Shown piece by piece: positions 39,819 to 60,243 of a stretch of DNA of 64,000 bases. Under the pieces are notes generated by a model. That model was given only the letters and a program-made list of their open reading frames with translations, had not been told where the DNA came from and ran no database searches. The translations under genes were made by a program, and so were the position numbers. The number at the start of each line of letters is the position of its first letter. Position 1 is the stretch's first letter. Source of the stretch: Nisaea sp. (GTDB taxonomy: Bacteria > Pseudomonadota > Alphaproteobacteria > Thalassobaculales > Thalassobaculaceae); the NCBI RefSeq assembly GCF_017640745.1, contig NZ_JAEPQA010000025.1, positions 1-64,000 of the forward strand. The letters are read 5' to 3'.

Positions 39819-39897
39819 GCCGGTTCTCCCTGCCCGCGACAGCCACAATGGTCCGCTTCCCCGATGGGCTGCGCAAATTAATCTTTGCCGACCATCG

Positions 39898-40790: not shown

Positions 40791-40815
40791 CCCACATGAA
40801 AGGACCCGATCGCGC

Positions 40816-43650: not shown

Positions 43651-43704
43651 GGGACGTTTCCTCCTCTGTTCGGGCGCTGCCAGTTTCCCCTGGGGGGCTG
43701 GGGG

Positions 43705-45357
43705 TCAGACCCGCTTGATGTCGTATTCGGGCTTGCGGCCGGTGCCGTAGCGGCCGAGCGCGCCCTCGGGACCGACGGCGTTCGGGCGCTGGAAGATCCA
43801 GTTCTGCCAGGCGGTCAGCCGTCCAAAAATCTTGGTTTCCATGGTCTCGGGACCGGCGAAACGGAGGTTGGCCTCCATGCCGGTCAGCGCATCCGGCGAG
43901 AAGCTGGCGCGCTCCTCGAGGAAGATGCGGACCTCGTCCTCCCAGTCGATATCGTCGAAGATGAAGGTGACGAGGCCGAGTTCGTCGGCGCGCTCCGCAT
44001 CGAGGCTCTCACCGATGCTTTCCTCGGCCGCCTTCAGCGTCTCGGGCTCGCCGAGGAAGCGGGTCTCGAGCCGGGTCAGGCCGTTGCTCATCGGGAACGG
44101 CCCAAAATTGGCCGGGCCGAGCGCGATCTCCGCCGGCGGGCGGTTGTCGCCGTCGAGCTGCCCTTCCAGCATGTAGGAACGGTCGCAGGCGAAGAGCAGT
44201 TCGGCGAGGGAGCCGGCGAAACAGCTTCCCGGCTCGACCAGCGCCACCAGCGAGCGCGAGGTGACGTCGATCCGCTTCATCACCCGCTTCCAGTAGAGCA
44301 GGATCTCGCGGCCGAGCCAGTTGCTCCGGTTGGCGGCGAGGAAGGCGTCATGCTCCAGAACCTTCGCGCCGTCGCCCTCGGTCTTGAAGATCAGCGTGCC
44401 GATCTCGAGCTCGTTCAGGCGCAGATGCAGGATCGCGTCGTCCAGCTCGCGGCAGAGCTTCAGCATCCAGTAATCGGCGCCGAGCGCGGCCAGCGCGCCG
44501 GTATCCGCGGGCACATCCTCTTCCGGACCCTTGATCAGGATCGTCGCGTTGCGCTCGGCGCGATCGATCTCGACCGTGACCAGGCTGTAGCGCACGAGAT
44601 CGCCGTCGATCTCGCGCTCGACCTTCGGCAGGGCGATGCCCTTGGCGTCGGACGGCCGGTCGGAACTCGCGGCCATTGCGGCGACGCGGGCGGCGACCAC
44701 CTCATCGAACTTCGAATTCGGCGCGACCTCGTCGACCAGATCCCAGTCGGCGGCGCGCTTGCCCTTGATGCCTTCCTCGATGGCGCAGAACACGTCCGCG
44801 CGGTCGCGGCGCACCTTGCGCTTGTCGGTGACGCGGGTGAGGCCGCCGGTGCCCGGCAGGACGGCGAGCAGCGGCGCTTCCGGCAGGGCGACGGAGGAGG
44901 AACCGTCGTCGGTCAGGATGATATGGTCGGTCGCGAGCGCGAGTTCGTAGCCGCCGCCGGCGCAGGCGCCGGTCACAGCGGCGAGATATTTCTGCCCGGA
45001 CTCGGCGCTCGCCTCTTCCATGTAGTTCCGGGTCTCGTTGGTGAACTTGCAGAAGTTCACCTTGTGGGCATGGGCCGCGCCGGCGAGCATGCGGATGTTC
45101 GCCCCGGCGCAGAACACGCGGTCCTTGGCCGAGCGGAGCACCACGACCTTCACTTCCGGATGCTCAAACCGCAGGCGCTGGATGGCATCGTAGAGCTCGA
45201 TATCGACCCCGAGATCGTAGGAATTGAGCTTCAGCTCGTAACCCTCGAACAGGCCGCCCTTCTCGTCCACGTCCATGACGAGGTCGGCGCGCGGGCCGTC
45301 GAACTCCAGCTTCCAGTGCTTGTAGCGGGTCGGATCGGTCCGGAAATCGATCATCAT
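43705..45357 (-). CDS. boxC: 2,3-epoxybenzoyl-CoA dihydrolase BoxC
   Basis: 550 residues, a long member of the enoyl-CoA hydratase family with two crotonase-like halves. It opens the epoxide ring of 2,3-epoxybenzoyl-CoA with two waters to give 3,4-dehydroadipyl-CoA semialdehyde and formate. Visible: the N-terminal half with RVFCAGANIRMLAGAAHAH (oxyanion-hole region), GACAGGGYELALATDHI and SVALPEAPLLAVLPGTGGL; the second half has WKRVMKRIDVTSRSLVALVE and CFAGSLAELLFACDRSYML. Its product formate could be oxidised by the FDH encoded nearby, which is inference. First gene of boxC-boxB. Confidence 0.96.
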   Translation of the reverse strand: MMIDFRTDPTRYKHWKLEFDGPRADLVMDVDEKGGLFEGYELKLNSYDLGVDIELYDAIQRLRFEHPEVKVVVLRSAKDRVFCAGANIRMLAGAAHAHKVNFCKFTNETRNYMEEASAESGQKYLAAVTGACAGGGYELALATDHIILTDDGSSSVALPEAPLLAVLPGTGGLTRVTDKRKVRRDRADVFCAIEEGIKGKRAADWDLVDEVAPNSKFDEVVAARVAAMAASSDRPSDAKGIALPKVEREIDGDLVRYSLVTVEIDRAERNATILIKGPEEDVPADTGALAALGADYWMLKLCRELDDAILHLRLNELEIGTLIFKTEGDGAKVLEHDAFLAANRSNWLGREILLYWKRVMKRIDVTSRSLVALVEPGSCFAGSLAELLFACDRSYMLEGQLDGDNRPPAEIALGPANFGPFPMSNGLTRLETRFLGEPETLKAAEESIGESLDAERADELGLVTFIFDDIDWEDEVRIFLEERASFSPDALTGMEANLRFAGPETMETKIFGRLTAWQNWIFQRPNAVGPEGALGRYGTGRKPEYDIKRV

Positions 45358-45544: not shown

Positions 45545-46252
45545 ATGCAGGATTTTGCAGATTCATTCTCGCTTGCCTTCGGGCTGATCCTCTCGGCCGA
45601 TCCGGAACTGGCCGAGATCGTGCTGCTGTCGCTCAGAGTCAGCTTGTCCGCGACGCTCGCCGCTTGCGCGATCGGCATGTCTCTCGGCGCGGCGATGGCG
45701 ATCTTCCGCTTCCCGGGCCGCGGTGCGCTGCTGATCTTCACCAATGCCATGATGGGCCTGCCGCCGGTCGTGGTCGGCCTCGCGATCTACATGCTGCTCT
45801 CCAACGCGGGGCCGCTCGGCGCGTTCTCGCTGCTATATTCACCGACCGCGATGGTGATCGCACAGACCGTCCTCGTGACGCCGATCGCGACGGCGCTGAC
45901 CCGGCAGGTCATCTCCGACCTGCATGTCGAATATGACGAGCAGCTCCGCTCGCTCTCCCTCGGGCCGCTCGACACGCTCGGCACCCTGCTCTGGGACGCA
46001 CGTTTTTCGCTGATCACCGTGGCGCTCGCCGGTTTCGGCCGCGCCATCGCAGAGGTCGGCGCCGTGATCATCGTCGGCGGCAACATCAATCACGTGACCC
46101 GGGTGATGACCACGGCGATCGCGCTGGAGACCTCGAAGGGCGATCTCGCCCTCGCCCTTGCGCTCGGCCTGATCCTGATCGGGATCTCGATCACGGTGAA
46201 CGCGGCCCTGATGGCGCTGAAGGGTACGGCAAGGCGGTTCGCCTATGAATAA
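45545..46252 (+). CDS. tupB: Tungstate ABC transporter permease
   Basis: 235-residue inner-membrane permease with five or six helices. The cytoplasmic coupling loop is EYDEQLRSLSLGPLDTLGTL and the last helices include ALAGFGRAIAEVGAVIIVGGNI, a pattern typical of TupB/WtpB-type tungstate permeases. Helix 1 follows the family-typical SADPELAEIVLLSLRVSLSA. Neighbouring tupC and tupA complete the importer. There is no ribosome-binding site before ATG 45545. A second TGCA-N6-TGCA (45546-45559) lies in the first codons. It diverges from boxC. Confidence 0.93.
   Translation: MQDFADSFSLAFGLILSADPELAEIVLLSLRVSLSATLAACAIGMSLGAAMAIFRFPGRGALLIFTNAMMGLPPVVVGLAIYMLLSNAGPLGAFSLLYSPTAMVIAQTVLVTPIATALTRQVISDLHVEYDEQLRSLSLGPLDTLGTLLWDARFSLITVALAGFGRAIAEVGAVIIVGGNINHVTRVMTTAIALETSKGDLALALALGLILIGISITVNAALMALKGTARRFAYE
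45546..45559. promoter_or_regulatory. Second TGCA-N6-TGCA element at tupB start
   Basis: TGCAGGATTTTGCA matches the TGCA-N6-TGCA form seen 97 bp away at boxC. It overlaps tupB codons 1-5, so it may be either an operator or a coding coincidence. Confidence 0.35.
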
Positions 46253-47024
46253 CCTGCAGCAGACCCACGGCGCGAACGCCTCGTTCGTTCAACGCAACGC
46301 CCTCCTGCCGCTCCGCGCCGACGCGCTGCGCTTCGCGCCGGACGGATTGACCATTCTCGACGATGTCTCGCTGCAGATCGCCGAGGGCGGGATCACGATG
46401 ATACTCGGCTCGAACGGCGCCGGCAAAAGCGTGCTGCTGAGGCTGCTCCACGGGTTGCTGGAGCCGCACCGGGGCGAAGTGCTCTGGCGCGGCGGCCCGG
46501 CGACCCGCGAAATCCGGCGGCGCCAGGCCATGGTGTTCCAGAAACCGGTGCTGCTGCGGCGCTCGGTCGCCGCCAATCTCGAGCATGCGCTGAAGGCCGC
46601 CGGCGTTCCACGCACCGAGAGAGCGCGCCGGATCGAGGAAGCCCTGGAGGAAGCCGGCATCGCCCATCTTGCAAAACGTCCGGCGCGGGTCCTTTCGGGC
46701 GGAGAACAGCAACGCCTCGCCGTTGCCCGCGCCCTCAGCCTCAAGCCCGATGTGCTGTTCCTGGACGAGCCGACCGCCAGCCTCGACCCTGTCTCGACCG
46801 CCGCGATCGAGGCCCTGATCCTCGCCGCCGACCGGCGCGGCTGCAAGATCGTCATGATCAGCCACGACCTGCATCAGGCGCGCCGCCTCGCCTCGGAGAT
46901 CGTCTTCATGGACCGCGGCCGGATCGCCGAGCAGTCCGAGGCCGCGAGCTTTTTCAAAGAACCGTCGAGCGCCGCGGCGCGCGACTTCCTGGCCGGACGG
47001 CTTCGCTTGCCGGACGGCCGATGA
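46245..47024 (+). CDS. tupC: Tungstate ABC transporter ATP-binding protein
   Basis: 259 residues. ABC ATPase with Walker A GSNGAGKSVLLRLL, Q-loop AMVFQKPVLLRRSV, signature LSGGEQQRLAVARAL, Walker B VLFLDEPTASLDP and H-loop MISHDLHQARRLAS. It powers tungstate import through TupB. No C-terminal TOBE/molbindin domain is present, unlike ModC. It overlaps tupB by eight bases and tupA's upstream frame by a few; the three genes form one operon. Confidence 0.94.
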   Translation: MNNLQQTHGANASFVQRNALLPLRADALRFAPDGLTILDDVSLQIAEGGITMILGSNGAGKSVLLRLLHGLLEPHRGEVLWRGGPATREIRRRQAMVFQKPVLLRRSVAANLEHALKAAGVPRTERARRIEEALEEAGIAHLAKRPARVLSGGEQQRLAVARALSLKPDVLFLDEPTASLDPVSTAAIEALILAADRRGCKIVMISHDLHQARRLASEIVFMDRGRIAEQSEAASFFKEPSSAAARDFLAGRLRLPDGR

Positions 47025-47059
47025 CCAGCAAGCAAGATCGATCAAAGGGAGAGAGCAAG

Positions 47060-47887
47060 ATGAGATACCTTAAGCAGTTTATTGGCGGACTTGCCGTTGC
47101 GGCACTCGTTGCCGCCGGCAGCGCGGGCGCCTTCGCCGCCGACAAGTTCATCATCGTGCAGTCGACCACCTCGACGCAGAATTCGGGTCTGTTCGACTAC
47201 ATGCTGCCGAAATTCACCGAAAAGACCGGGATCGAGGTTCGGGTCGTGGCCGTTGGGACCGGCCAGGCGCTGAAGAATGCACGGAACGGCGATGGGGACG
47301 TCCTCTTCGTGCATGCCAAGCCCGCTGAGGAGAAGTTCGTCGCCGAGGGTTTCGGGGTGAAACGCCAGGACGTCATGTTCAACGACTTCGTCATCGTCGG
47401 CCCGGAGGCCGATCCGGCGAAAGTCGGCGGCATGAAGGACGCTCCGGCGGCCCTGAAGATGATCGCTTCGGCGGCGGCTCCCTTTGCCTCCCGCGGTGAC
47501 GATAGCGGCACCCACAAGAAGGAGAAGGCGCTCTGGAAGGCGGCCGGCGTCGATGCCTCGGCCTCTAGCGGATCCTGGTACCGGGAAACCGGCTCCGGCA
47601 TGGGCGCGACGCTCAATGCCGCGGTCGGCATGGGTGCCTACGCGCTGACCGACCGGGCCACTTGGATCAGCTTCAAGAACAAGGCCAACTTCAAGATCCA
47701 GGTCGAGGGCGACAAGGTCCTGTTCAACCAATACGGCGTCATCCTGGTGAACCCGGCCAAGCATCCGAAAGTCAAGCAGGCCGAAGGCCAGGCCTTCATC
47801 GACTGGGTGACCGGACCGGAAGGCCAGGCGACGATCAACAGCTACACGCTGAACGGCCAGCAGCTGTTCTTCGCCAACGCGAACTGA
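47060..47887 (+). CDS. tupA: Tungstate-binding periplasmic protein
   Basis: 275 residues with a Sec signal peptide (YLKQFIGGLAVAALVAAG, cleavage near AFAA-DK). The mature protein begins FIIVQSTTSTQNSGLFDYML; TTSTQNSGL is the oxyanion-binding TTS motif of TupA proteins, distinct from ModA. The later HAKPAEEKFVAEGFG, FNDFVIVGPEADPA and SSGSWYRETGSGMG segments are family hallmarks. Start ATG 47060 is supported by GGGAGAG; an upstream frame from 47021 would add 13 polar residues before the signal peptide. Confidence 0.95.
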   Translation: MRYLKQFIGGLAVAALVAAGSAGAFAADKFIIVQSTTSTQNSGLFDYMLPKFTEKTGIEVRVVAVGTGQALKNARNGDGDVLFVHAKPAEEKFVAEGFGVKRQDVMFNDFVIVGPEADPAKVGGMKDAPAALKMIASAAAPFASRGDDSGTHKKEKALWKAAGVDASASSGSWYRETGSGMGATLNAAVGMGAYALTDRATWISFKNKANFKIQVEGDKVLFNQYGVILVNPAKHPKVKQAEGQAFIDWVTGPEGQATINSYTLNGQQLFFANAN

Positions 47888-47908: not shown

Positions 47909-48808
47909 TCAGGGCGCATTGTCGCGGACCCGGCCGAGTTCCGTAATGTCGTATCCACCCAGCTCCGCCGCCCGTTCGCGGAAGAGCGCGCTCCGGGTGA
48001 AGGCGAGCAGAGCCTGGAACGGCGGCTCGAAATAGAATTTCCGGCTGACCAGCAGATCGAACTCTTCCTCGACCAGAGGGAGAAAGGCCAGCCCGCTCTG
48101 CCCCGCGGCGGAGACCAGCCCCAGTCCCGCATCCGCGCGTCCTGCGCGCACCGCCTCGCCAAGCTCGGACTCCGTCCGCGCCGGCGGCGCGCTCCAAGAG
48201 ACCGCATCCCCGGCGAGGCTTGCCTGCTCCAGCAACTGTCGGAGGAGCACCTGGCTGCCCGCGCTCTCCTGCCGCGCGACAAGCCGTTTTCCGGCGAGGT
48301 CCTTGATGCCGGAGATGCCGAGCGGATTGCCGGCAGCCACGACGAGACCGCGCGACCGTTTCGCCCAGGAGAGCAGCACAGCATCCCGCGACGGTCCCAG
48401 CGCCCGTACCGCGCCGATGTTCCAGAGCGCGCCCGCCGCCTTGGGAATATGGATTGCCGCGACCGCCGCCTGCCTGTTCCGGAACCGCTCTAGCCCGTCG
48501 AGACTGCCGTCGAACAGAGTGGGGAGCGCCGCGCCCGACTCCCGGATCGCCCAGTCCAGCAACGGATCATGGCTCCCCGCGACGATGGCGGGCCGCTCAG
48601 TGGTTTGCTCGGGGGCGCCCGCGTCGCGCCCGGCGGACGGATCGCCGGCGATCCAAGCCTCGATTTCTTCGCGCGGGAACAGCAGCTTGCCCGTGACGCG
48701 GCGACAGGGAACCGCGCCGTCGGCTGCGAGCTGGTAAACCTTCCGCTCCTTCACCCGGAGCAGGTCGGCAAGTTCGCGCACGGTCAGGAAGGCTGGAGGC
48801 GTTGTCAT
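47909..48808 (-). CDS. Helix-turn-helix regulator with PBP-like (metal oxyanion type) domain
   Basis: 299 residues. The N-terminus is an excisionase-type winged HTH (LTVRELADLLRVKERKVYQL to REEIEAWI, ~8-53). A ~210-residue domain follows with the fold pattern of periplasmic binding proteins (VAGSHDPLLDWAIRESGAAL, SGIKDLAGKRLVARQESAGS, ADAGLGLVSAAGQSGLAFLP), like the PBP-like domain attached to molybdopterin enzymes. One-component regulators of this type sit beside molybdate/tungstate transport and FDH genes. Here it faces tupA convergently and lies upstream of the cytochrome genes. Tungstate or molybdate sensing is inferred from context only. Confidence 0.82.
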   Translation of the reverse strand: MTTPPAFLTVRELADLLRVKERKVYQLAADGAVPCRRVTGKLLFPREEIEAWIAGDPSAGRDAGAPEQTTERPAIVAGSHDPLLDWAIRESGAALPTLFDGSLDGLERFRNRQAAVAAIHIPKAAGALWNIGAVRALGPSRDAVLLSWAKRSRGLVVAAGNPLGISGIKDLAGKRLVARQESAGSQVLLRQLLEQASLAGDAVSWSAPPARTESELGEAVRAGRADAGLGLVSAAGQSGLAFLPLVEEEFDLLVSRKFYFEPPFQALLAFTRSALFRERAAELGGYDITELGRVRDNAP

Positions 48809-48881: not shown

Positions 48882-49250
48882 CTATTTCAGGGTCTGGACA
48901 AAAGCGAGGATCGCGTCGAGATCGTCCGCGGTAAGTCGGATTTCCGCCGCGTTCGGCGGCAATGTCGTCAGCGGCTCGACGCCTTCCATACGGATGAAGG
49001 CCCCATGGGGCCGGCGATCGAAAAAGCTGACGAACCTGTGCTCACCATCGGGCAGCGTCATCAGCAGTTTGAAGGAGGGCGTGCTGCCGATCCCGCCAAG
49101 GCCGTTTGCGGGATCGATCACATGACAGCGCGCGCAATGCTGAAGCGAGATCGACCGTCCCTCTGATACGAGGCCCCCGTCCTGTGCGAGCGCCGTGTCG
49201 GCGAACGGCAGGAAGGCCGGCAGCAGCAGCGCGGGGAGCCAGCGCGGCAT
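48882..49250 (-). CDS. Small periplasmic cytochrome c
   Basis: 122 residues with signal peptide (WLPALLLPAFLPFADTALA-Q). One haem motif CARCH at residues 39-43 and a methionine ligand in AFIRMEGVEP. The C-terminal LTADDLDAILAFVQTL is the closing helix of a class I cytochrome c. Start is ATG 49250 overlapping the stop of the upstream 43-residue gene (TGATG); GTG 49253 is an alternative. It forms a tight set with that gene and the WD40-cytochrome gene, and may pass electrons between FDH or its cytochrome b and the respiratory chain. Confidence 0.88.
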   Translation of the reverse strand: MPRWLPALLLPAFLPFADTALAQDGGLVSEGRSISLQHCARCHVIDPANGLGGIGSTPSFKLLMTLPDGEHRFVSFFDRRPHGAFIRMEGVEPLTTLPPNAAEIRLTADDLDAILAFVQTLK

Positions 49251-49381
49251 CACTCGAGCCGGACGCTGCCCGTCGCGGACTGGTTGACGTGGCTCGTGCT
49301 GAAATCGAGCTGTCCGAGGACGAACCAGGCGATGCCGGAAAAGACGGCGATCCCGACAAGTGACGAAATGAAAGCTTTCAT
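49250..49381 (-). CDS. 43-residue single-pass membrane protein
   Basis: A short gene starting at ATG 49381 and encoding 43 residues. It has one membrane helix (AFISSLVGIAVFSGIAWFVL) and a polar tail LGQLDFSTSHVNQSATGSVR. Its stop overlaps the next gene's ATG and its start is 13 bp from the WD40-cytochrome stop, strong evidence that it is real and translationally coupled. No named family is recognised. It may be an assembly or anchor subunit for the adjacent c-type cytochromes. Confidence 0.75.
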   Translation of the reverse strand: MKAFISSLVGIAVFSGIAWFVLGQLDFSTSHVNQSATGSVRLE

Positions 49382-49394
49382 TTGGACGATCTCC

Positions 49395-50768
49395 TTAATT
49401 TTTCCCGGCGCGGCGTTCCGCCTCGGCGAGGGCTTCTCTCAGGAAATGCAGCAGGGCCTTGCGGTCTTCCCCGCTGCCCAGCCGCTGCAGCGGCATCTTG
49501 GTGCCAGGCACGACATGTTCCGGACCTTTTTCAAACAATTCTCCGATCGTCTCTTCCGACCAGACGATGTCGCTCTCCAGCAGGGCCTTCGAATAGGGAT
49601 AGCCATCGACGCTTCCGACACGGCGTCCGAAAACGCCAAAGAGAGTGGGGCCGGCCCTGTTGCCGCCATCCGGCGTAAGGGTGTGGCAGACTGCGCAGGT
49701 GCCAAAGACCGCGGCTCCGCGAGCAGCAAGCGCATCTCCTTCAGGCACATAGAAAGCCGTCTCCAGCGACTTCTTGACGCCGATCTCGACGCCTTTCTCC
49801 AGATCCCAGCGGGCCACCTTCGCATCGCGACCGGCTGACAGGAGTTCACGGCCATCCGGCGTGAAGCTGACCGCCCAGACGGGTCCCTTGTGTCCGCGCA
49901 GGGTCTGCAGCGGCCGGCCATCGGCGAGCGACCAGAGCACGATCTGTCCGTTCGCCCCCCCGGTCGCGAAACGGGCTCCCGCGCGATCGACGTCGATCGA
50001 GAGAACCGGGGCCTCGTGGCCCAGCATGAAGCGCCGCTCCTCGCCGCTCTCGAGGTCGAACAGCCGAACCGCCTCGTCGGTACCAGCCACGACGAGAGTG
50101 CGGCCGTCGGGTGCCAGGAAAAGACGGTTCACGGGCAACCCTATTTCGGTGAACGTCTCGGGCACTGTGTCGCGGGCGAGTGTCCAGATCCGCACCGTTC
50201 CGTCATAGCCCGCGCTAAGGACACGGCCGCCGTCGGCTGTGAACTGCACTGCGTTCACAGGACCGGAATGCCCTTTCAGGACGACTGCCTCGCCGTCCTC
50301 CGCGCCCCTTGAAATACGAACCGCACCGTCGAAACCGGCGGAGGCGACCGTGCTCCCATCGGGCGACACCGCGATGGCGCTGACGCGTCCCTCATGCCGG
50401 GTCAGGAGCCTCGCCGGCTCAGTCTCGCCGAGCCTCCAGAGATAGACCGCGCCGTCATTGCCGCCGGAGACCGCATGGGAGGCGTCCGGCAGGAAGGCGA
50501 CGTCGCTCACAGCCGCGTCGTGGCCGTACATTACGCGGCGTGCATGCTCGTCGGGAAGATCCCAGTAGATGATGGAATAATCGAATCCGGCGGTCAGCGC
50601 GGTCTTGCCGTCGGGCGCGACCGCGACCGCGTGCACCGGGCCTCCGTGGCCGATCAACTCGGCATCGGCAAGCGGAACCGCTGCCCCCGCAAACAGGACG
50701 GCCGCCGCGATCCATCTTCGGATCACGGCGCCTGATATCCGGGAGAAAGCGGTGGCTCCGGGCACCAC
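49395..50768 (-). CDS. Periplasmic WD40 propeller-cytochrome c fusion
   Basis: 457 residues. Signal peptide (~15-36, IRRWIAAAVLFAGAAVPLADA split at the cleavage site), then about seven WD40 blades (~38-330) with recurring GH..PV.AV.F..DG..L.SAG.D..V..W, for example GHSGPVNAVQFTADGGRVLS and GHKGPVWAVSFTPDGRELLS. The C-terminal ~110 residues are a class I cytochrome c with CAVCH at 357-361, GPTLFGVFGRRVGSVDGYPYS and Met ligand in GTKMPLQRL (M424). Start GTG 50768 has CAGGAG upstream. WD40 proteins are usually cytosolic; here the propeller is exported. It lies 21 bp from fdhC in the FDH operon. Confidence 0.88.
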   Translation of the reverse strand: MVPGATAFSRISGAVIRRWIAAAVLFAGAAVPLADAELIGHGGPVHAVAVAPDGKTALTAGFDYSIIYWDLPDEHARRVMYGHDAAVSDVAFLPDASHAVSGGNDGAVYLWRLGETEPARLLTRHEGRVSAIAVSPDGSTVASAGFDGAVRISRGAEDGEAVVLKGHSGPVNAVQFTADGGRVLSAGYDGTVRIWTLARDTVPETFTEIGLPVNRLFLAPDGRTLVVAGTDEAVRLFDLESGEERRFMLGHEAPVLSIDVDRAGARFATGGANGQIVLWSLADGRPLQTLRGHKGPVWAVSFTPDGRELLSAGRDAKVARWDLEKGVEIGVKKSLETAFYVPEGDALAARGAAVFGTCAVCHTLTPDGGNRAGPTLFGVFGRRVGSVDGYPYSKALLESDIVWSEETIGELFEKGPEHVVPGTKMPLQRLGSGEDRKALLHFLREALAEAERRAGKN

Positions 50769-50789: not shown

Positions 50790-51872
50790 CTAGTCCGCGC
50801 CGGACGAGGCCTGGCGCGTCTGCACTTCCTCGACCCAGAGGCTGTGGTGCTCCTTCGCCCAGTTCTCGTCGACCATGCCACTGCCCATGGCGTCGAACGC
50901 GCCTTCCATACCGATGGAGCCGATATAGATATGCGCGACGATGATCACGATCAGGGCGATGCCGACGACCGAGTGCCAGAGCTGCGAGAGCTGCATCTCC
51001 TGCATCACCGTCAGCTCTGTCGGCAGATTGGCGCCAAACATGTTCAGGACGCCGAAGGTCTTGCCGAACATGTGCAGTTCGAAGGGGAACAGCAGAGCGA
51101 TCCCGGACGCGCTGATCGAGGCGCCGCCGATGATGACCGACCAGAAGATCAGCTTTTGGCCCGCATTGAACTTCTTCGAAGGCGGGTGCACCCCCTTCGA
51201 AAAAAGTCCGCCGCCCTGGGCCAGCCAGATCAGGTCCAATTTATTGGGGATATTATGCTTCACCCACATGACGAACATCATCACCACGCCGACCATGAAG
51301 GCGAAGGCGATGTAATTATGCAGGTACTTTCCGGCGATCGTGATCACCGAGAACGCATCCGGACCGATCACCGGCAAGAGCACGTAGCGCCCATAGAGCA
51401 CGTTGAGCCCGGTAAGCCCGAGGACGACGAAACTTGTCGCCGTCAGCCAGTGCGCGAAACGCTCGACCGAATTGAACCGCTCGATCAGCTTGCCGCTCAT
51501 CCCGTGTTCGACCTTGATCCGGCCGCGCAGGATGAAGAACAGGCTGAGAAGAATGAGAATGCCGAGCAGCGCCCACGCACCGTAGAGCGACAGCGGACCG
51601 TTGCGGAAGGCACGCCAATTGTCGCCCTCTGACTGGATCAGCACGCCGGCCTGGGCGTTCGGGATCGAGACCTGGCCCTGCTGGCCCTCGCGGATCTGGC
51701 GCCAGAAATCGGAGTCGCTGGAAGTTCCGAGCGTATTGCCCGGCACCTCGCCCGCTTGTTGCGCGGCGGCACTCTGAACCAAGGCGAAATCGGAATCGGT
51801 AGCGGCGCCCGTCAGAAGGAACACGGCGAGAAAGAGACCGCCGAGATGCTTGAAGAAGGTCGGTTTCGTCAT
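50790..51872 (-). CDS. Formate dehydrogenase subunit gamma (cytochrome b)
   Basis: 360 residues. Membrane cytochrome b that takes electrons from the FDH iron-sulphur subunit to the quinone pool. An N-terminal hydrophobic signal/anchor and ~80-residue periplasmic stretch precede four core helices: GAWALLGILILLSLFFILRG, FVVLGLTGLNVLYGRYVLLP, FAFMVGVVMMFVMWVKHNIP and VGIALIVIIVAHIYIGSIG. Haem histidines lie in RFAHWLTATSF, LHNYIAF and AHIYIG. The protein matches the FdoI/FDH3-gamma family with extra N-terminal sequence. It follows the small lipoprotein gene by 19 bp. Confidence 0.93.
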   Translation of the reverse strand: MTKPTFFKHLGGLFLAVFLLTGAATDSDFALVQSAAAQQAGEVPGNTLGTSSDSDFWRQIREGQQGQVSIPNAQAGVLIQSEGDNWRAFRNGPLSLYGAWALLGILILLSLFFILRGRIKVEHGMSGKLIERFNSVERFAHWLTATSFVVLGLTGLNVLYGRYVLLPVIGPDAFSVITIAGKYLHNYIAFAFMVGVVMMFVMWVKHNIPNKLDLIWLAQGGGLFSKGVHPPSKKFNAGQKLIFWSVIIGGASISASGIALLFPFELHMFGKTFGVLNMFGANLPTELTVMQEMQLSQLWHSVVGIALIVIIVAHIYIGSIGMEGAFDAMGSGMVDENWAKEHHSLWVEEVQTRQASSGAD

Positions 51873-51891: not shown

Positions 51892-52098
51892 CTAGAGGTC
51901 GAAACTCTGCAGGCGACCGCGCTCGCGGATCTCCGTCAGGGCTTCTTCGGAAAGGGACTGATCCTTGGCACCGAGATAGGTGCCCTTCTTGTAGAGGAGG
52001 ACCCTGTCCTGTTCGCTCTCGCGGCAACCGGCCAGCAGCACCATCACCAGCGCGGCAAGGGCCAATCCGCGGAACACGACCGGACGTGCTCTATCCAT
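51892..52098 (-). CDS. Small FDH-associated lipoprotein
   Basis: 68 residues. Signal VVFRGLALAALVMVLLAGCRES with lipobox LLAGC (Cys near residue 22), then a short mature part LYKKGTYLGAKDQSLSEEAL...RGRLQSFDL. Start ATG 52098 has AAGGAG upstream; the longer frame is not coding-like. It sits between the beta and gamma subunit genes, so it may aid assembly or anchor the FDH at the membrane. No characterised family is known to me. Confidence 0.75.
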   Translation of the reverse strand: MDRARPVVFRGLALAALVMVLLAGCRESEQDRVLLYKKGTYLGAKDQSLSEEALTEIRERGRLQSFDL

Positions 52099-52282: not shown

Positions 52283-52879
52283 TTAACCGCCCGTCTTCTG
52301 GTCGTAGGCCGTGCCCCAGCCCCAGGCGCCGGAGCCGAAGCCACGGGCCACGGTCCGCTCGCGGTAGATCGCGGACACAACGTCCCCGTCGCCCGCGAGA
52401 AGGGCCTTGGTCGAGCACATTTCCGCGCAGAGCGGCAGCTTGCCCTCCGCGAGACGGTTACGGCCATATTTCTGGAATTCTTCAGAGCTATGGTCGTCTT
52501 CCGGACCGCCGGCGCAGAAGGTGCACTTATCCATCTTGCCGCGGCTGCCGAAGTTGCCCGCTTGCGGGTACTGCGGAGCTCCGAACGGACAGGCATAGAG
52601 GCAATAGCCGCAGCCGATGCACAGATCCTTGGAGTGCAGAACCACACCCTCGTCGGTCTGGTAGAAGCAATCGACCGGGCACACCGCCATGCAGGGCGCG
52701 TCCGAGCAGTGCATGCAGGCCACCGAGATGGACCGTTCGCCGGGCTTGCCGTCATTGATCGTGACGACACGGCGGCGGTTCACGCCCCAGGGAACCTCAT
52801 GCTCGTTCTTGCAGGCCGTGACGCAGGCGTTGCATTCGATGCAGCGCTCGGCGTCACAAAGGAACTTCATACGTGCCAT
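52283..52879 (-). CDS. Formate dehydrogenase subunit beta (iron-sulphur)
   Basis: 198 residues. Four [4Fe-4S] ferredoxin-type clusters by motif: CIECNACVTACKNEHEVPWG, CMHCSDAPCMAVCPVDC, CIGCGYCLYACPFGAPQ, and CTFC...CAEMCSTKAL. It carries electrons from the catalytic subunit to the cytochrome b. There is no C-terminal membrane helix, so it is the short form found in FDH3-type enzymes and is probably exported together with the TAT-bearing alpha subunit. Shine-Dalgarno AAGGGAG precedes the ATG. It is 12 bp downstream of the alpha subunit. Confidence 0.95.
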   Translation of the reverse strand: MARMKFLCDAERCIECNACVTACKNEHEVPWGVNRRRVVTINDGKPGERSISVACMHCSDAPCMAVCPVDCFYQTDEGVVLHSKDLCIGCGYCLYACPFGAPQYPQAGNFGSRGKMDKCTFCAGGPEDDHSSEEFQKYGRNRLAEGKLPLCAEMCSTKALLAGDGDVVSAIYRERTVARGFGSGAWGWGTAYDQKTGG

Positions 52880-52891
52880 TGTTTCGCTCCC

Positions 52892-55762
52892 TTACGCAGG
52901 CTCGATGCGACAGAGCGTCGCCTTGGTTTCCTGCATCTGCGTGACCGAGTCGTAACCGTAGGTCTGCGCAGTGTTCGTGGATTCGCCGAGGACATAAGGA
53001 TCGGCACCGTCCGGATACTTGCTCCGGAGATCCTCTCCCTGGAAATGCCCGCCGAAGTGGAACGGCATGAAGGCGACGCCCGTGCCGACCCGTTCGGTGA
53101 CCATTGCCTTGACCTTGACCTTGCCGTTCTCCGGACCGGTCACCCAGACCATGCTTCCGTCACGGATGCCTGCATTGTTGGCATCGCGCGGATTGATCTC
53201 GATGAACATGTCCTGCTGCAGCTCGGCGAGCCACGGGTTGGACCGGGTTTCGTCCCCGCCGCCCTCGTACTCGACCAGACGGCCGGAGGTGAGGATGATC
53301 GGGAAGTCCTTGGAGAAGTCGTTCTTCTGGATCGACGCGTAGAGCGTCGGCAGACGGTACGACTTCCGGTCCTCGTAGGTCGGGTAGTCGGCCACGAGAT
53401 CCCGGCGGGAGGTGTAGAGCGGCTCGCGATGGAGCGGCACCGGATCCGGGAAGGTCCAGACCACGGCCCGTGCCTTCGCGTTCCCGAACGGAGCACATTC
53501 GTGCTTGATCGCGACACGCTGGATACCGCCCGAAAGGTCGGTCTTCCAGTTGGTCTTGTCGCCCGCGATCGCCTCGATGGTCTTGCGCTCCTCGTCGGTC
53601 AGATCCTTGTCCCAGCCGAGTTTCTTCAGCATGGCCATGGTGAATTCGGGATACCCGTCCTTGAGTTCCGAATTCGCGCTGTAGGAATCGACCGCGAGCA
53701 GGTTCTCGCCGTTCCGCTCCACGCCGAAACGCGCACGGAAGGTGAGGCCGCCCTCGGAGACCGGCTTCGACGTATCGTAGAGGATCGGGGTGCCCGGATG
53801 GTTCATGTCCGGAGTGCCCCACGCCGGCCACGGCATGCCGTAATAGTCGCCGTCGCACGGACCGCCCTGCGCCTGCAGCGTGGTCTTATCGAAGGTATGC
53901 TGGTTGGCCATGTGCTTGCGCAGCCGCTCCGGCGACTGGCCGGTATAGCCGATGGTCCACATGCCTCTGTTGAATTCGCGGGTCACGTCCTCGACCAGAG
54001 GCACCTTGTTCTCGACCTTGATGTTCTTGAACATCTGGTCGGCCATGCCGAACTTCTCGGCGAAGAGATACATGATCTCGTGGTCCGTCTTCGACTCGAA
54101 GAGCGGATCCACCACCTTCTCGCGCCACTGGATGGAGCGGTTGGAGGCGGTCACCGAGCCGTAGGTCTCGAACTGCGTGCAGGCCGGCAGAAGGTAGGCA
54201 CCTTCCTTGCGGTCGTGCAGCACGGCGGAAACCGTCGGATAGGGGTCGACGACGACGAGAAGGTCGAGCTTCTCCATCGCCTTCTTCATTTCGACCATAC
54301 GGGTCTGCGAGTTCGGCGCATGCCCCCACAGAACCATCGCCCGGACGTTCTCCGGCTGGTCGATGTTGGCCTTGTCCTCGAGCACGCCGTCGATCCAGCG
54401 CGACACCGGAATGCCGCTGGATTCCATCAGCTCCTTGCTGCCGAAGCGGCCGAGCAGATAGTCGTAATCGACGTCCCAGACCCGCGCCCAGTGCTTCCAG
54501 GAGCCGGTGGCGAGGCCGTAGTAACCGGGCAGGGTGTGCGACAGCACGCCGAGGTCGGTCGCGCCCTGCACGTTGTCATGGCCGCGGAAGATGTTGGTGC
54601 CGCCGCCGGCCGTGCCCATGTTGCCGAGCGCAAGCTGCAGGATGCAGTAGGCCCGGGTGTTGTTGTTGCCGTTGGTGTGCTGGGTGCCGCCCATGCACCA
54701 GATCACGGTGCCCGGACGGTTGTTCACCATGGTGCGCGCGACGCGGCGGAGCTGCGAGCCCGGAACCCCGGTGACCCGCTCGGTCTCTTCCGGCGTCCAC
54801 TTCTTCACCTCGGCCTTGATCTCTTCCATCCCCCAGACGCGCTGGCGTATGAATTCCTTGTCTTCCCAGCCATTCTCGAAGATGTGCCAGAGAATGCCCC
54901 AGATCAGCGCCACGTCCGAACCCGGACGGAAGCGGACATATTCGGTCGCGTGCGCCGCGGTGCGCGTGAAGCGCGGGTCGCAGACGATCAGCGGGGCCGC
55001 ATTCTGTTCCTTCGCCCGGAGCAGGTGGAGCAGCGAGACCGGATGGGCCTCGGCAGGGTTGCCGCCGATGACGAAGATGCAACGGCTGTTGTGGATGTCG
55101 TTGTAGCTGTTCGTCATCGCGCCGTAGCCCCAGGTGTTCGCAACACCCGCGACCGTGGTCGAGTGACAGATACGCGCCTGGTGGTCACCGTTGTTGGTGC
55201 CCCAGAAGGCGTAGAACTTGCGGAACAGGTAGGCCTGTTCGTTGCTGTGCTTGGCCGAGCCGAGCCAGTAGACCGAATCCGCGCCGCTCTCCTGACGGAT
55301 CTGCAACATCTTGTCGCCGATCTCGTTGATCGCCTGCTCCCAGCTGATCTTCTGGTACTTCCCGTTGACCAGCTTCATCGGATATTTCAGCCGGCGCTCG
55401 CCATGGGCGTGCTCGCGGACCGCGGCGCCCTTGGCGCAGTGCGAACCGAGGTTGAACGGGCTGTCGAAGCCCGGCTCCTGGCCGATCCACACGCCATTCC
55501 GCACTTCCGCCTCGACCGTGCAGCCGACCGAACAGTGGGTGCAGACCGAACGGATCTTCTCGATCCCGGCCAGTGGATTGGCTTGCGCTTCGGCTTTCTT
55601 GACCATGCCGCCGCCGAGGGCGGATGCCGCGGCGATACCGCCGACGGTAATTCCGGAGCGTTTCAGGAACGTTCTCCGGTCGATCGCGCTGCCGGCCTGG
55701 CCGGTCAAAGCGCGAGACATGCGCGAGGACGCAGCGCGTCCGCCTGTCTTCTTCATCAACAT
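52892..55762 (-). CDS. Formate dehydrogenase catalytic subunit alpha (Mo/W-bis-MGD, Cys type)
   Basis: 956 residues. Catalytic subunit that oxidises formate to CO2. The TAT signal is IDRRTFLKRSGITVGGIAAA, followed by [4Fe-4S] ligands CTHCSVGCTVEAEV and GSHCAKGA. The metal ligand is a cysteine (RICHSTTVAG, codon TGT), not selenocysteine, with the following His and the later GGTQHTNGNNNTRA loop. A C-terminal molybdopterin-dinucleotide domain (ILTSGRLVEYEGGGDETRSN, IEINPRDANNAGIRDGSMVW) is complete. Nearby tupBCA suggest the metal is tungsten, which is inference. Start ATG has GGGAGAA upstream. Confidence 0.96.
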   Translation of the reverse strand: MLMKKTGGRAASSRMSRALTGQAGSAIDRRTFLKRSGITVGGIAAASALGGGMVKKAEAQANPLAGIEKIRSVCTHCSVGCTVEAEVRNGVWIGQEPGFDSPFNLGSHCAKGAAVREHAHGERRLKYPMKLVNGKYQKISWEQAINEIGDKMLQIRQESGADSVYWLGSAKHSNEQAYLFRKFYAFWGTNNGDHQARICHSTTVAGVANTWGYGAMTNSYNDIHNSRCIFVIGGNPAEAHPVSLLHLLRAKEQNAAPLIVCDPRFTRTAAHATEYVRFRPGSDVALIWGILWHIFENGWEDKEFIRQRVWGMEEIKAEVKKWTPEETERVTGVPGSQLRRVARTMVNNRPGTVIWCMGGTQHTNGNNNTRAYCILQLALGNMGTAGGGTNIFRGHDNVQGATDLGVLSHTLPGYYGLATGSWKHWARVWDVDYDYLLGRFGSKELMESSGIPVSRWIDGVLEDKANIDQPENVRAMVLWGHAPNSQTRMVEMKKAMEKLDLLVVVDPYPTVSAVLHDRKEGAYLLPACTQFETYGSVTASNRSIQWREKVVDPLFESKTDHEIMYLFAEKFGMADQMFKNIKVENKVPLVEDVTREFNRGMWTIGYTGQSPERLRKHMANQHTFDKTTLQAQGGPCDGDYYGMPWPAWGTPDMNHPGTPILYDTSKPVSEGGLTFRARFGVERNGENLLAVDSYSANSELKDGYPEFTMAMLKKLGWDKDLTDEERKTIEAIAGDKTNWKTDLSGGIQRVAIKHECAPFGNAKARAVVWTFPDPVPLHREPLYTSRRDLVADYPTYEDRKSYRLPTLYASIQKNDFSKDFPIILTSGRLVEYEGGGDETRSNPWLAELQQDMFIEINPRDANNAGIRDGSMVWVTGPENGKVKVKAMVTERVGTGVAFMPFHFGGHFQGEDLRSKYPDGADPYVLGESTNTAQTYGYDSVTQMQETKATLCRIEPA

Positions 55763-55873: not shown

Positions 55874-56068
55874 CTAGAAGCGGGATAAGGCGTACGCCGT
55901 CTTCACATGCGCGGTTTCCTGGTAGCCGGCACTGACCTTGCCAGGCCGCTCCGCGGCCTCGGCTGGTTTCTGCGCCCCGGCAATCGCCGCGGCACCGGCG
56001 GCAGCGCCGATGCCCGACAATTTCAGGAAATCACGGCGTGTTGATTCGGGCTTTTTTGCATTCGCCAT
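55874..56068 (-). CDS. FDH-region TAT-signal small protein
   Basis: 64 residues consisting of a twin-arginine signal (STRRDFLKLSGIGAAAGAAA) and a short tail ending TAYALSRF. It matches the known small family called formate dehydrogenase region TAT target, found between the chaperone gene and the catalytic-subunit gene in many proteobacteria. The role is unknown; it may be co-exported or help the chaperone. ATG 56068 has CGGAG upstream; TTG/GTG codons just before it are less likely starts. Confidence 0.88.
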   Translation of the reverse strand: MANAKKPESTRRDFLKLSGIGAAAGAAAIAGAQKPAEAAERPGKVSAGYQETAHVKTAYALSRF

Positions 56069-56157
56069 CACCAAACTCCGTTCTTCTCCGCACGGGTCCG
56101 ATATGTCTCTCCGTCGCCGGCCCGTGCCCGGCGCAAGAGGTCATCCGCCGCCCGGCC

Positions 56158-56760
56158 TCAGCCGAGCATGCGGAAACTCTCGCCCTCGATCTGGATGAAC
56201 TGCCGTCCGATCGAACCGAGGGGCATGTAGAGGACCGAGGCCTTCGCGCCCTCAAGATCCTCGAAAAATTTCTCCGCCCAGGAGGCGATATGCTTGTCGA
56301 AGAATTCCGCCTGGCGCTCCAGATGGCAGGCCGGGCCGAAATCGCCGCGGATCATGCCGGCCATCACGTCGCAAAGCGCGGCGATGTGATCTTCCGGCTC
56401 CTTCACCTCGTCGGCGCGCGCGACCCCGAGTTTCGCGAGATCGTCGCGCAGGTCCGCAAGCGGTTTCTCGTTCAGAAATCCGGTCAGGTAATAGGATCCG
56501 TGCGGGACCAGCTCGCCCCGCCCGACACCGTAGAAAAGTTTGTGGAATTCATCGTCCGCCAACTCCACCGTGGCGGCGCGGGCCGCGGCCGCGAACGCGG
56601 CGACGGATTTGCCGAGCGGGGTATCGTCCCCGCCCAGGCTCCGGGCGATCTCGAGACTCTCGACAGCCGGCGGACGCGCGAGAAAATGCGCCAGCAAGCC
56701 ATACCAGTGCGCGCGAACGGCGTCTTCTTCCGACACCAGACTGCGGGCGGTTTCTGTCAC
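56158..56760 (-). CDS. TorD/DmsD-family FDH maturation chaperone
   Basis: 200-residue, all-helical protein of the TorD family of redox-enzyme chaperones, which bind TAT signal peptides and help insert the molybdopterin cofactor. Features: DAVRAHWYGLLAHFLARPP at the N-terminus, the core LADDEFHKLFYGVGRGELVP and GSYYLTGFLNEKPLADLRDD, and EPEDHIAALCDVMAGMI, the conserved D-H region. It is placed first in the minus-strand order TorD, TAT-target, alpha, beta, gamma. Start GTG has GGAGAGAGGG upstream. Confidence 0.9.
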   Translation of the reverse strand: MTETARSLVSEEDAVRAHWYGLLAHFLARPPAVESLEIARSLGGDDTPLGKSVAAFAAAARAATVELADDEFHKLFYGVGRGELVPHGSYYLTGFLNEKPLADLRDDLAKLGVARADEVKEPEDHIAALCDVMAGMIRGDFGPACHLERQAEFFDKHIASWAEKFFEDLEGAKASVLYMPLGSIGRQFIQIEGESFRMLG

Positions 56761-57552: not shown

Positions 57553-58087
57553 GGCGGCGCCTCCCGGATCGGTCGCGCGATCCGTCCACCCGCGGGCGGC
57601 GGGCGAACTTGTCCTGCTCGCGGCGATGATCGCTGCGCTTGCGTTTGACGAACACCTCGTCCTCATGGTGCTGGTCGCAGAAATCCTGCACCCAAGCGAT
57701 CAGCCCTTCGGGCATCGGCACCGCATCGACAATCTCCTCGCCGGAATCGAGATAGTCCTGCGACTCGTAAGCCGAAGCCGTCGCCAGAAACGGCACCACG
57801 TCGAATTCGGACTCGGGATCGTCGTTCTGGCGCAGCACCACGTAAACCGACGGCGTCCCTGCCAGGTTCACCTTGTACGCCTCGGTTTCTCCGCGATAAA
57901 GCGTCAGCTGAAGCGTGGCCGCATGGAAATGCTCGACGCCTTCGGCCTTGTCCAGCAACTTCCATTCGGTCACCTCCGGCGCGCCGACAATGACAGAGAC
58001 GGCGCTCCAGCTATAATCCTGCCAGGGATTGTCGAGCTTTTTGCGCTCCACCACGACACCAACCGGGATTGTCCGGCTGCGTTCCAT
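57545..58087 (-). CDS. DUF3305 domain-containing protein
   Basis: 180 residues. The DUF3305 core (~5-150) begins IPVGVVVERKKLDNPWQDYS, continues with LTLYRGETEAYKVNL and VYVVLRQNDDPESEFDVVPF, and ends in a basic arginine-rich tail. Known only as a partner of DUF3306 next to formate dehydrogenase genes. Start ATG 58087 has GAGGAG upstream; longer frames into the divergent region are rejected. It diverges from the ferredoxin gene at 58210, and the 122-bp gap probably holds both promoters. Confidence 0.87.
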   Translation of the reverse strand: MERSRTIPVGVVVERKKLDNPWQDYSWSAVSVIVGAPEVTEWKLLDKAEGVEHFHAATLQLTLYRGETEAYKVNLAGTPSVYVVLRQNDDPESEFDVVPFLATASAYESQDYLDSGEEIVDAVPMPEGLIAWVQDFCDQHHEDEVFVKRKRSDHRREQDKFARRPRVDGSRDRSGRRRLV

Positions 58088-58209
58088 TTCCACTCCTCGG
58101 ATTCCCCTCGCCGGGTCATTGCCCCGGCCGCTCCCTGTTGCAAATATGTGTACCAAAAGCGCGCACAGGAAAGCCTCAACGAAACGAAACGCGCGCGGGA
58201 GAGAGATAT

Positions 58210-60243
58210 ATGGCCACCGACAACGGGCGGCTGCTGATGTGCAACTGCAACGGCTCCATGCCCCTGGACGCGAGCGTCGCCGCGCTCTCCAAGGATGGCG
58301 AGACACCTTTCATCCATTCCGCGCTCTGCCGCGCGCAGCTGGGAAATTTTCGCGATGCGGCAGCCGCGGGAGGGCCTCTGACGGTCTGCTGCACCCAGGA
58401 AGCGCCGCTCTTCACCGAAGTCGCGGCGGAGCAGAACGGCGAGGAGGAGACGCTTTCCTTCGTCAATATCCGGGAGCGCGCAGGGTGGTCGGAAGAGCCG
58501 ACAAAGGCCGGTCCCAAGATCGCCGCCCTGATCGCGGAGGCCGCGGTCAACGGCGCGCCCACGACACAGGTGCCGCTGACCTCCGAAGGGGTCTGCCTCG
58601 TCTATGGCAAGGACCAGGCCGCGCTCGACGCCGCCCGCCAGCTCGCCGCCCGGCTCGACGTGACGCTGCTGCTGAAGGAAAGCGACGGCATCATCCCGCC
58701 GGCGGTGATGGACGTGCCCGTCTTCCAGGGGCGGATCGCCCGCGCCCAGGGACATCTCGGCGCCTTCGAGATTGCAGTCGACCGCTATGCGCCGGCCGAT
58801 CCGGCGAGCCGGGACGGCTTCCGATTCGAGCGGCCGCAGGACGGCGCGATGTCGACTTGCGACCTGATCCTCGATCTGACCGGAGAGACTCCGCTGTTCA
58901 CCGGCCATGAGAAGCGCGACGGCTACTTCCGGCCCGACCCGGGAGATCCGGTCGCGGTGCAGAAGGCGCTGTTCGAGCTCTCGGACATGGTCGGAGAATT
59001 CGCGAAGCCGCGCTATGTCGACTTCCATTCCGATCTCTGCGCCCATTCGCGGAGCCGCAAGACCGGATGCTCGCGCTGCATTGACGTCTGCCCGGCGGGG
59101 GCGATCAGCCCGGACGGCGATGTCGTCGCCTTCGATCCCTATATCTGCGGCGGCTGCGGCGCCTGCAACTCGGTCTGTCCGACCGGCGCGGCACATTACA
59201 CCTTCCCGGCGACGGCCACGCTGATCGAGCGCCTGACGGCCATGATGCAGGCCTACCGGGATGCCGGCGGCCGGCATGCCACCCTGTTCGTCCACGACTC
59301 GCAGCATGGCGGCGCCGTGATCGACATGATGGCCCGCTTCGGCAGGGGACTGCCGGCGCATGTGCTGCCCTTCGCCGTCACCCAGACGACCCAGGTCGGG
59401 CTCGATTTCCTCGCCGCCGCCTTCGCAAACGGGGTCGGGCGGGTCGTGCTCTATGCCCATCCGACGAAGCGCGACGAAATCTCCGGGCTCGCAAACCAGA
59501 TCGGCCTCGCGGAGACGGTGCTGACCGGGCTTGGATTCGAGAGCGGCCTGGTCGAACTTCTGATCGAAGCCGACCCGGATGCCGTCGAAACCAGGCTCTG
59601 GTCTATGCAGAAGACCGAGGGGGTGACGCCCCGGCCCTTCCTGGCGCTTGGCGGCAAGCGGGAGATCATGGACACGGCGCTGGCCCAGCTCCGGCTGGCC
59701 TCGCCGCAACCGGTCGACATGATCGCGTTGCCGCCGGGGGCGCCCTATGGCCGGATCGCGGTCGACGTCGAGGCCTGCACGCTCTGCCTCGCCTGCGTCG
59801 GCGCCTGCCCGGCGAGTGCGCTGCAGGACAATCCGGACAAGCCGGAGCTCTCCTTCATCGAGAACAACTGCGTGCAGTGCGGGCTCTGCCAGAACACCTG
59901 CCCGGAAAGCGCCATCACGCTGGAACCGCGACTCAACTTCCTGACCGAGGCGAAATCGCCGGCGGTGATGAAGGAGGAGGAGCCGTTCCACTGCGTACGC
60001 TGCAACAAGCCCTTCGCGGCGAAGAGTTCGATCGAGCGGATCGTGAAGACGCTGGCGGAAAAGCACCCGATGTTCAAATCGCCTGAGGCGGCGCGACGGC
60101 TGCAGATGTGCGAGGACTGCCGGGTGGTCGACCAGTTCGAGGGCAAGGACGATCCGATGCGCGGCGGCGCGCGGCCCGCGATCAGGACGACGGAGGATTA
60201 CCTCGGCGGCACGGTTTCGGACGAGGACGAGAGCATCCACTGA
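58210..60243 (+). CDS. Multi-cluster 4Fe-4S ferredoxin-like protein (FDH-associated)
   Basis: 677 residues, no signal peptide. N-terminal ~260 residues carry scattered cysteines (LLMCNCNGSM, LTVCCTQEAP). Four cluster motifs follow: GCSRCIDVCPAGAI (with LCAHSR before it), CGGCGACNSVCPTGA, CTLCLACVGACPASAL and CVQCGLCQNTCPESA. The C-terminus has CVRCNKPF and CEDCRVVDQF, possibly a zinc site. A ~200-residue domain between the second and third clusters is HdrD/CoB-reductase-like in feel but unassigned. A cytosolic electron carrier serving FDH maturation or reductant transfer is plausible. Start ATG 58210 has GGGAGAGA. Confidence 0.9.
   Translation: MATDNGRLLMCNCNGSMPLDASVAALSKDGETPFIHSALCRAQLGNFRDAAAAGGPLTVCCTQEAPLFTEVAAEQNGEEETLSFVNIRERAGWSEEPTKAGPKIAALIAEAAVNGAPTTQVPLTSEGVCLVYGKDQAALDAARQLAARLDVTLLLKESDGIIPPAVMDVPVFQGRIARAQGHLGAFEIAVDRYAPADPASRDGFRFERPQDGAMSTCDLILDLTGETPLFTGHEKRDGYFRPDPGDPVAVQKALFELSDMVGEFAKPRYVDFHSDLCAHSRSRKTGCSRCIDVCPAGAISPDGDVVAFDPYICGGCGACNSVCPTGAAHYTFPATATLIERLTAMMQAYRDAGGRHATLFVHDSQHGGAVIDMMARFGRGLPAHVLPFAVTQTTQVGLDFLAAAFANGVGRVVLYAHPTKRDEISGLANQIGLAETVLTGLGFESGLVELLIEADPDAVETRLWSMQKTEGVTPRPFLALGGKREIMDTALAQLRLASPQPVDMIALPPGAPYGRIAVDVEACTLCLACVGACPASALQDNPDKPELSFIENNCVQCGLCQNTCPESAITLEPRLNFLTEAKSPAVMKEEEPFHCVRCNKPFAAKSSIERIVKTLAEKHPMFKSPEAARRLQMCEDCRVVDQFEGKDDPMRGGARPAIRTTEDYLGGTVSDEDESIH

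Follow-up and report, generated by a model that had tools for sequence, protein, structure and literature searches.

A WD40-cytochrome c fusion and a 43-residue membrane protein as a probable overlooked part of the FDH3 formate dehydrogenase electron path in Alphaproteobacteria

The formate dehydrogenase locus of Nisaea sp.

The window (the whole stretch of Nisaea sp. DNA that was analysed, 64,000 nucleotides) contains a formate dehydrogenase (FDH) locus whose minus-strand genes follow the order fdhA, fdhB, a lipoprotein-like gene, fdhC, a WD40-cytochrome c fusion, a gene for a 43-residue membrane protein here called TM43, a small cytochrome c gene here called cytS, and an HTH/PBP_like gene. 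The features, by coordinate and strand, are as follows.

45545..47887, plus: ABC permease, ATPase and binding protein, beyond the HTH/PBP_like gene
47909..48808, minus: HTH_17 + PBP_like protein, directly downstream of the fusion, TM43 and cytS
48882..49250 (ORF 48882-49253), minus: cytS, small exported cytochrome c; CARCH; PF00034, 27.2 bits
49250..49381, minus: TM43, 43-residue single-helix membrane protein; MKAF start, VRL-type end
49395..50768, minus: WD40-cytochrome c fusion, exported, 457 aa; GTG start, the true start may be some codons inward
49440..49736, minus: predicted class I cytochrome c domain of the fusion, about residues 345-443; C358, C361, H362, M425
49779..50657, minus: predicted seven-bladed WD40 propeller domain of the fusion, about residues 38-330; from model, Foldseek and Pfam
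50790..51872, minus: fdhC, FDH gamma, cytochrome b; TIGR01583; H141, H185, H300, H314
51892..52098, minus: small lipoprotein-like gene (..LLAGCRESEQDR..) between fdhB and fdhC
52283..52879, minus: fdhB, FDH3 beta, 198 aa; NF038355, 347.1 bits, cut-off 240
52892..55762, minus: fdhA, molybdopterin FDH alpha; twin-arginine signal RRTFLKRSG
55874..56074, minus: formate dehydrogenase region TAT target, TIGR02811-like; 45.6 bits, slightly below the cut-off of 48.45
56158..56760, minus: TorD-like chaperone; PF02613
56929..57666, minus: DUF3306 protein
58069..60243, plus: 4Fe-4S protein of the FDH locus; the ORF opens at TTG, with the true start lying inward of it; named by eye

A sequence-only reading of this DNA had placed an exported WD40-cytochrome c fusion, a 43-residue membrane protein and a small cytochrome c directly behind the FDH gamma gene, with the stop of the second overlapping the start of the third, and all of this was confirmed. 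Together with fdhABC, the three genes lie on the minus strand at the positions then given. The fusion starts 21 bases past the stop of fdhC, which scores above the TIGR01583 cut-off (149.6 bits against 115.85); 13 bases separate it from TM43, whose ATG is preceded by AGGAG; and the TM43 stop and cytS start overlap as TGATG, so that the likely start of cytS is the ATG at 49250 and not the GTG at 49253. FdhB exceeds the curated cut-off for an FDH3 beta subunit (NF038355).

Domain architecture of the fusion protein

Behind a Sec-type signal ending ..PLADA (assigned by eye), the fusion carries WD40 repeats (PF00400, 180.6 bits, six stretches) and then a cytochrome c domain bearing CAVCH and PGTKMP (PF00034, 30.2 bits in the genome scan, where the cut-off was 21.3). 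The AlphaFold2 model, from 46 rows, has a mean pLDDT of 89 and a pTM of 0.79 and shows a helical cytochrome domain behind a WD40 propeller; the closest PDB structures are seven-bladed WD40 proteins (Foldseek, E 4.6e-28). C358, C361, H362 and M425 are invariant in 46/46 rows of the fusion alignment, which drew on 45 of the 80 named loci described below, with L062 excluded because of a stop codon inside its match. By predicted fold the first part is a seven-bladed WD40 propeller, and by CxxCH and a distal methionine the second is a predicted class I cytochrome c. Against the NCBIfam profile for cytochrome c-550 CycA (NF043008) the fusion scores 56.6 bits, below the cut-off of 240, and the cytochrome domain alone matches. 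By analogy with the family, CxxCH plus methionine points to a high-potential carrier.

Co-occurrence of the fusion with FDH3

A first survey of 61 genomes, including that of the window, gave strong fusion matches (E<1e-70) in 12 others, one of them (G060) twice, and a weaker match in G042. The two matches in G060 are two WD40-cytochrome c fusions (L044 and L051). The co-occurrence check that the sequence-only reading had proposed was then run on a class-wide set of 387 genomes of the window's class, each at least 90% complete, in which the best four fusion candidates per genome were scored; the class-wide searches scored only some of the first-look candidates in each genome. The fusion profile matched at E<=1e-40 in 64 of these genomes, and FDH3 beta was found in 61.

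The full fusion is present in 39/387 genomes, 38 of which have FDH3 beta by model, while the 39th (G408) holds fdhC plus the end of fdhB at a contig edge; the fusion thus tracks FDH3. Propeller-only matches occur in 14 genomes, 12 with FDH3 beta. Matches in the remaining 11 genomes are partial, and three of these genomes have FDH3 beta, among them G077, which has a propeller-only gene at its FDH locus, and G341, whose copy (L146:5817-6488) joins a shortened propeller to a cytochrome domain with CANFH replacing CxxCH and is, as judged from that motif and length, decayed or haem-free. In this sorting G372 was first placed with the propellers by position, which is doubtful, and G077 with the others; both were later reassigned. 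A fusion or propeller is found in 50/61 genomes with FDH3 beta and in 3/326 without an FDH3-beta match, G408 being one of the three (Fisher p = 3e-48, ignoring shared ancestry). With G077 and G341 set aside, neither a fusion nor a propeller turned up among the candidates searched in nine of the 61 genomes with FDH3 beta, one of them (G364) ending at fdhB, so that FDH3 can do without the fusion.

Full fusions are spread over 23 families and propeller-only genes over seven (G077 counted, G372 not), with no family having both. The fusion gene is free of stops in 37 of the 39 genomes; in G144 a stop lies at an end, and in G130 an in-frame stop interrupts the gene. A sample of 338 genomes from across the phylum yielded the fusion in 22, every one in the window's class.

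A contig scan for relatives of the fusion returned at least 555 stretches at E<=1e-3, among which plain WD40 or cytochrome proteins may be included. Named hosts among the best 80 of these include Bosea, Methylobacterium, Bradyrhizobium, Elioraea, Microvirga and Salinarimonas, and the top named match within the same 80 is Nisaea denitrificans (L055, 74%). Thirteen genomes showed no fdhABC gene in the stretch around the fusion, and FDH3 beta is encoded in all 13. It lies outside full 10-kb flanks of the fusion in L057, L058 and L065; the remaining cases are mostly short contigs or are cut near the locus, where linkage could lie just out of view, and in the genome of L130 FDH adjoins the other fusion. 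Of the earlier proposal that the propeller could dock to FDH or another dehydrogenase, the link with FDH is strongly supported. For the full fusion a dehydrogenase other than FDH is an unlikely partner, because each fusion genome checked has FDH3.

Linkage and arrangement of the loci

In 29 of the 39 fusion genomes the fusion shares the strand of fdhB and lies downstream of it at a distance of 0.65-3.5 kb. Three further fusions are within 1.6 kb on the opposite strand, three are at 10-11 kb and two at 85 and 252 kb; in one genome the fusion is on another contig, and in the last the locus is cut by a contig end. The outcome named beforehand as fatal to the idea, genes occurring mostly away from FDH, was thus not what emerged. 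FDH genes stand beside the fusion, in the same direction, in 11 of the 14 stretches around first-survey matches; in L044 they are about 6 kb away in the same stretch, and L051 and L052 are short contigs without FDH. The contig of L048 ends in fdhB, and the lipoprotein-like gene alone, with no fdhC, separates fdhB from the fusion. Among the best 80 named loci, 59 stretches contain fdhA, fdhB or fdhC, 11 contain other genes of the locus only (4Fe-4S protein, TorD, DUF3306) and 10 contain neither; fdhC is directly upstream of the fusion in 14. The 13 genomes checked for FDH3 beta are those of these 10 loci and of three of the 11.

Two layouts recur. The first is that of the window, fdhABC-fusion-TM43. 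In the second, seen in many Hyphomicrobiales, the fusion stands beside molybdenum-cofactor and FDH maturation genes (moeA-, mobA-, fdhD- and mrp-like genes, and the 4Fe-4S/DUF3306/TorD set), convergent with the 4Fe-4S gene; the names here rest on inspection or on likeness to proteins of the window itself, for four loci read. Recurrence of the gene order in many families excludes chance, and we have little doubt that the fusion is associated with FDH3. Two loci offered frames of 1019 and 802 aa in which fdhC seemed joined to the fusion, and these were rejected, the upstream part being fdhC in the wrong frame. In L165, tupBCA-like genes directly behind the fusion are a hint of a tungsten FDH.

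Unfused forms of the propeller and cytochrome

The concern that the fusion might be an annotation artefact, with split genes in relatives, did not materialise: of 131 retrieved loci having both parts, 122 encode them in a single open frame, and the nine split cases all belong to one clade. In eight of these, from three families, the propeller stands alone behind fdhC, and a separate cytochrome c gene of 126-159 aa is convergent beside it, followed by TM43; the ninth (L052) is on the short contig without FDH. Seven of the unfused cytochromes were read out, and all keep the methionine, most beginning with a signal-like stretch. Three loci (L143-L145) have the propeller and TM43 with no cytochrome c gene in the stretch.

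In a tree of 90 propellers, comprising about one third of L055-L134 taken by locus number plus ten named ones, a single branch (100/92) separates the fused from the unfused forms; the branch of L174 is very long. On this tree the history comprises either a single fusion or a single fission. Proteins joined in some lineages but encoded side by side in others usually function together. In L172 and L173 a propeller-only gene shares its stretch with a molybdopterin oxidoreductase of another kind (about 30% to fdhA), and FDH3 beta is elsewhere, on another contig.

TM43, a conserved small membrane protein

TM43 has one hydrophobic helix (residues 5-21), and searches of Pfam and NCBIfam gave one weak match each, both below cut-off. 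A profile was built from 16 chosen rows, in which L22 and a C-terminal V-R-L are invariant; other copies end VRQ, VRN or ARV. At E<=1e-4 this profile finds TM43 in 50/387 genomes, 48 of them with FDH3 beta. Among genomes lacking an FDH3-beta match, 11 have TM43 at E<=0.01 and only G042 and G408 at E<=1e-4; conversely, TM43 is missing from thirteen FDH3 genomes at E<=1e-4 and from ten at E<=0.01, and the Fisher value for TM43 against FDH3 ignores shared ancestry. Of 51 places where TM43 occurs, 45 have FDH3 beta no further than 6 kb away and three (G343, G042, G408) are beside a fusion or propeller. The conservation check called for in the sequence-only reading thus revealed a real family, 48/51 places being beside FDH3 beta, fusion or propeller. 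The other three copies (G082, G394, G333; L188-L190), from one family and two genera, are orphans with no FDH or fusion nearby by eye.

That TM43 is a chance ORF was ruled out, since the profile finds it at FDH3 loci class-wide; in the window's genome it is the sole good match, the next being at E 0.8. TM43 lies directly behind the fusion in 10 of 13 first-survey stretches tested. It also stands behind fdhC in loci that lack the fusion (L150, L153) and in loci whose fusion is elsewhere or on the opposite strand (L187, L120/L158, the last two of the same sequence), which rules it out as a fusion-only partner and assigns it to FDH3 loci and not to the fusion. Locus-level counts of TM43 are a lower bound, because frames above 170 aa were excluded and the L040 copy is missing; the locus-level profile went through three iterations at E 0.01, which leaves it open to drift, and the matches in L148 and L149 look spurious. 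Since residue 2, which precedes the helix, is a lysine, the positive-inside rule suggests that the N-terminus is inside and the C-terminus outside.

The small cytochrome and the lipoprotein-like gene

cytS is present in four other genomes of the window's genus. Among the best 80 of at least 555 named loci it was seen in the Nisaea record only, and it was not found in L135-L174; on these sequences it is a genus-level addition, within the genomes searched. The idea of the three genes as one module consequently holds in part: the fusion and TM43 recur together at FDH3 loci, whereas the small cytochrome is confined to the genus level and TM43 also occurs without the fusion. ORFs like the lipoprotein-like gene were found at FDH3 loci L048, L168 and L193, of genomes G036, G130 and G358, and this gene is possibly a further conserved small part of such loci.

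Proposed role of the fusion and TM43

It is probable that the fusion and TM43 together make up a component of the FDH3 electron path that has been overlooked. The twin-arginine signal of the alpha subunit indicates that FDH faces the periplasm, and the Sec-type signal of the fusion leads to the same compartment. We propose that the WD40 propeller may be a platform for docking to FDH on its periplasmic face, and that the class I cytochrome would accept electrons from the FdhB clusters or from the periplasmic-side haem b of FdhC and hand them to cytochrome c oxidase, in parallel with the quinone route. TM43 may be a small membrane subunit or linker of the membrane part of FDH, with its N-terminus in and its conserved tail out, and in the window's genus the second small cytochrome c could serve as an additional carrier. 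From motifs and gene context, we give an even chance to the reading that the fusion is a conserved FDH3 partner whose His/Met cytochrome takes FDH electrons towards cytochrome c oxidase; whether the fusion cytochrome is the electron acceptor of FDH appears similarly balanced. Delivery by the fusion independently of quinone is a more tentative suggestion. Tentative too is the fuller picture of an alphaproteobacterial FDH3 made up of FdhABC, TM43 and the WD40-cytochrome c protein, which might have arisen by one fusion of same-locus partners and might provide a direct, quinone-independent outlet to the oxidase.

The quinone route itself bears on these readings. FdhC aligns to 1kqf_C at all four haem-b histidines, the haem ligands of the gamma subunit of 1KQF, and a search of 79 FdhC rows, some of them near-duplicates and from loci with and without the fusion, found no loss of the quinone-route haem ligands, all four histidines being kept in 79/79. 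The quinone route has thus probably been retained; the make-up of the enzyme does not call for a second outlet, which would come on top of that route. An aa3-type oxidase and bc1 cytochrome b are each present in 38 of the 39 fusion genomes, the one without a bc1 match being 91% complete. The bypass of quinone put forward in the sequence-only reading was accordingly not borne out. Oxidase and bc1 are common in Alphaproteobacteria, so their presence hardly discriminates; an outlet to the oxidase is allowed and not singled out. The same observations fit an arrangement in which the propeller tethers the cytochrome at FDH, its haem being fed by bc1 and serving the oxidase, while formate electrons travel through quinone. 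We consider this unlikely, as the fusion follows FDH3 and is confined to 39/387 genomes, whereas bc1, which was searched in the fusion genomes, is widespread in the class.

It is likewise improbable that the fusion is an assembly or quality-control factor, aiding the periplasmic maturation of FDH3 (folding, or the redox state of haem b or clusters) outside the turnover path. The second layout speaks for such a factor, since many Hyphomicrobiales fusions stand among maturation genes and not behind fdhC; yet in the closest loci the fusion is in one run with fdhABC, and class I His/Met cytochrome c domains are usual electron carriers. A safety valve or sensor, in which the cytochrome drains or monitors FDH electrons under oxygen, seems very improbable: the aa3-type oxidase shows that the hosts can respire oxygen, and nothing more specific favours it, while Pfam and NCBIfam profile scans found no sensor or signalling domain on the fusion. 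The preferred reading remains that of an FDH3 partner passing electrons towards the oxidase.

Relation to known systems

The sequence-only reading knew of no description of such a module, and none appears among the open-access literature matches listed for a WD40-cytochrome c protein at FDH loci. We know of no precedent for the whole combination, single aspects of which are covered by formate dehydrogenase-N, Desulfovibrio FDH with cytochrome c3, and cytochrome cd1. The Desulfovibrio periplasmic FDH has a tetrahaem cytochrome c3 subunit, and it resembles the role proposed here in that a periplasmic FDH passes electrons to a c-type cytochrome; in the present case, by contrast, one predicted class I haem is carried on a WD40 propeller and the cytochrome b gamma subunit is retained. 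In the cytochrome cd1 nitrite reductase NirS a cytochrome c domain is joined to an eight-bladed d1-haem propeller, so that both proteins combine a cytochrome c domain with a beta-propeller, although the fusion matches seven-bladed WD40 proteins instead.

Escherichia coli formate dehydrogenase-N (FdnGHI, PDB 1KQF) shares with the enzyme here a Tat-exported alpha, an FeS beta and a cytochrome b gamma subunit, and to our knowledge it has no WD40-cytochrome partner. It differs in that the beta subunit here has 198 aa, ends ..GWGTAYDQKTGG, which is not hydrophobic by inspection, and lacks the C-terminal membrane helix that marks FDH-N. The FDH-N small subunit has a hydrophobic C-tail (PMC10924467). 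TM43, with its one helix, is an extra protein by comparison with FDH-N.

The name FDH3 reportedly originates from Fdh3 of Methylorubrum extorquens AM1, an FDH of the same class, the likeness being by name alone. Fusion-bearing FDH3 loci are present in Methylobacterium, Bradyrhizobium, Bosea and many further Alphaproteobacteria; six Methylobacterium records (L069, L110, L114, L121, L124, L129) carry it among the best 80 of at least 555. As of 2010 the activity of M. extorquens Fdh3 could not be assayed (PMC2991311). Should the native complex depend on both a cytochrome c partner and a small membrane protein, this would explain the failure of Fdh3 assays with the usual acceptors, and two named genes could be added back in such assays. 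The proposal, if true, would also extend the known small proteins by one conserved family and give WD40 propellers a new function in periplasmic electron transfer.

Other genes in the window

The ABC genes at 45545..47887 are likely to encode TupBCA tungstate uptake. Further from the FDH locus, the genes at 37534-41895 for an MFS protein and for GAPDH-like, arsenate-reductase-like and ACR3-like transporter proteins are grouped in what we take to resemble an ars cluster with a GAPDH/ArsJ pair, and two genes at 42202-45357 presumably resemble those for BoxB and BoxC of aerobic benzoyl-CoA breakdown.
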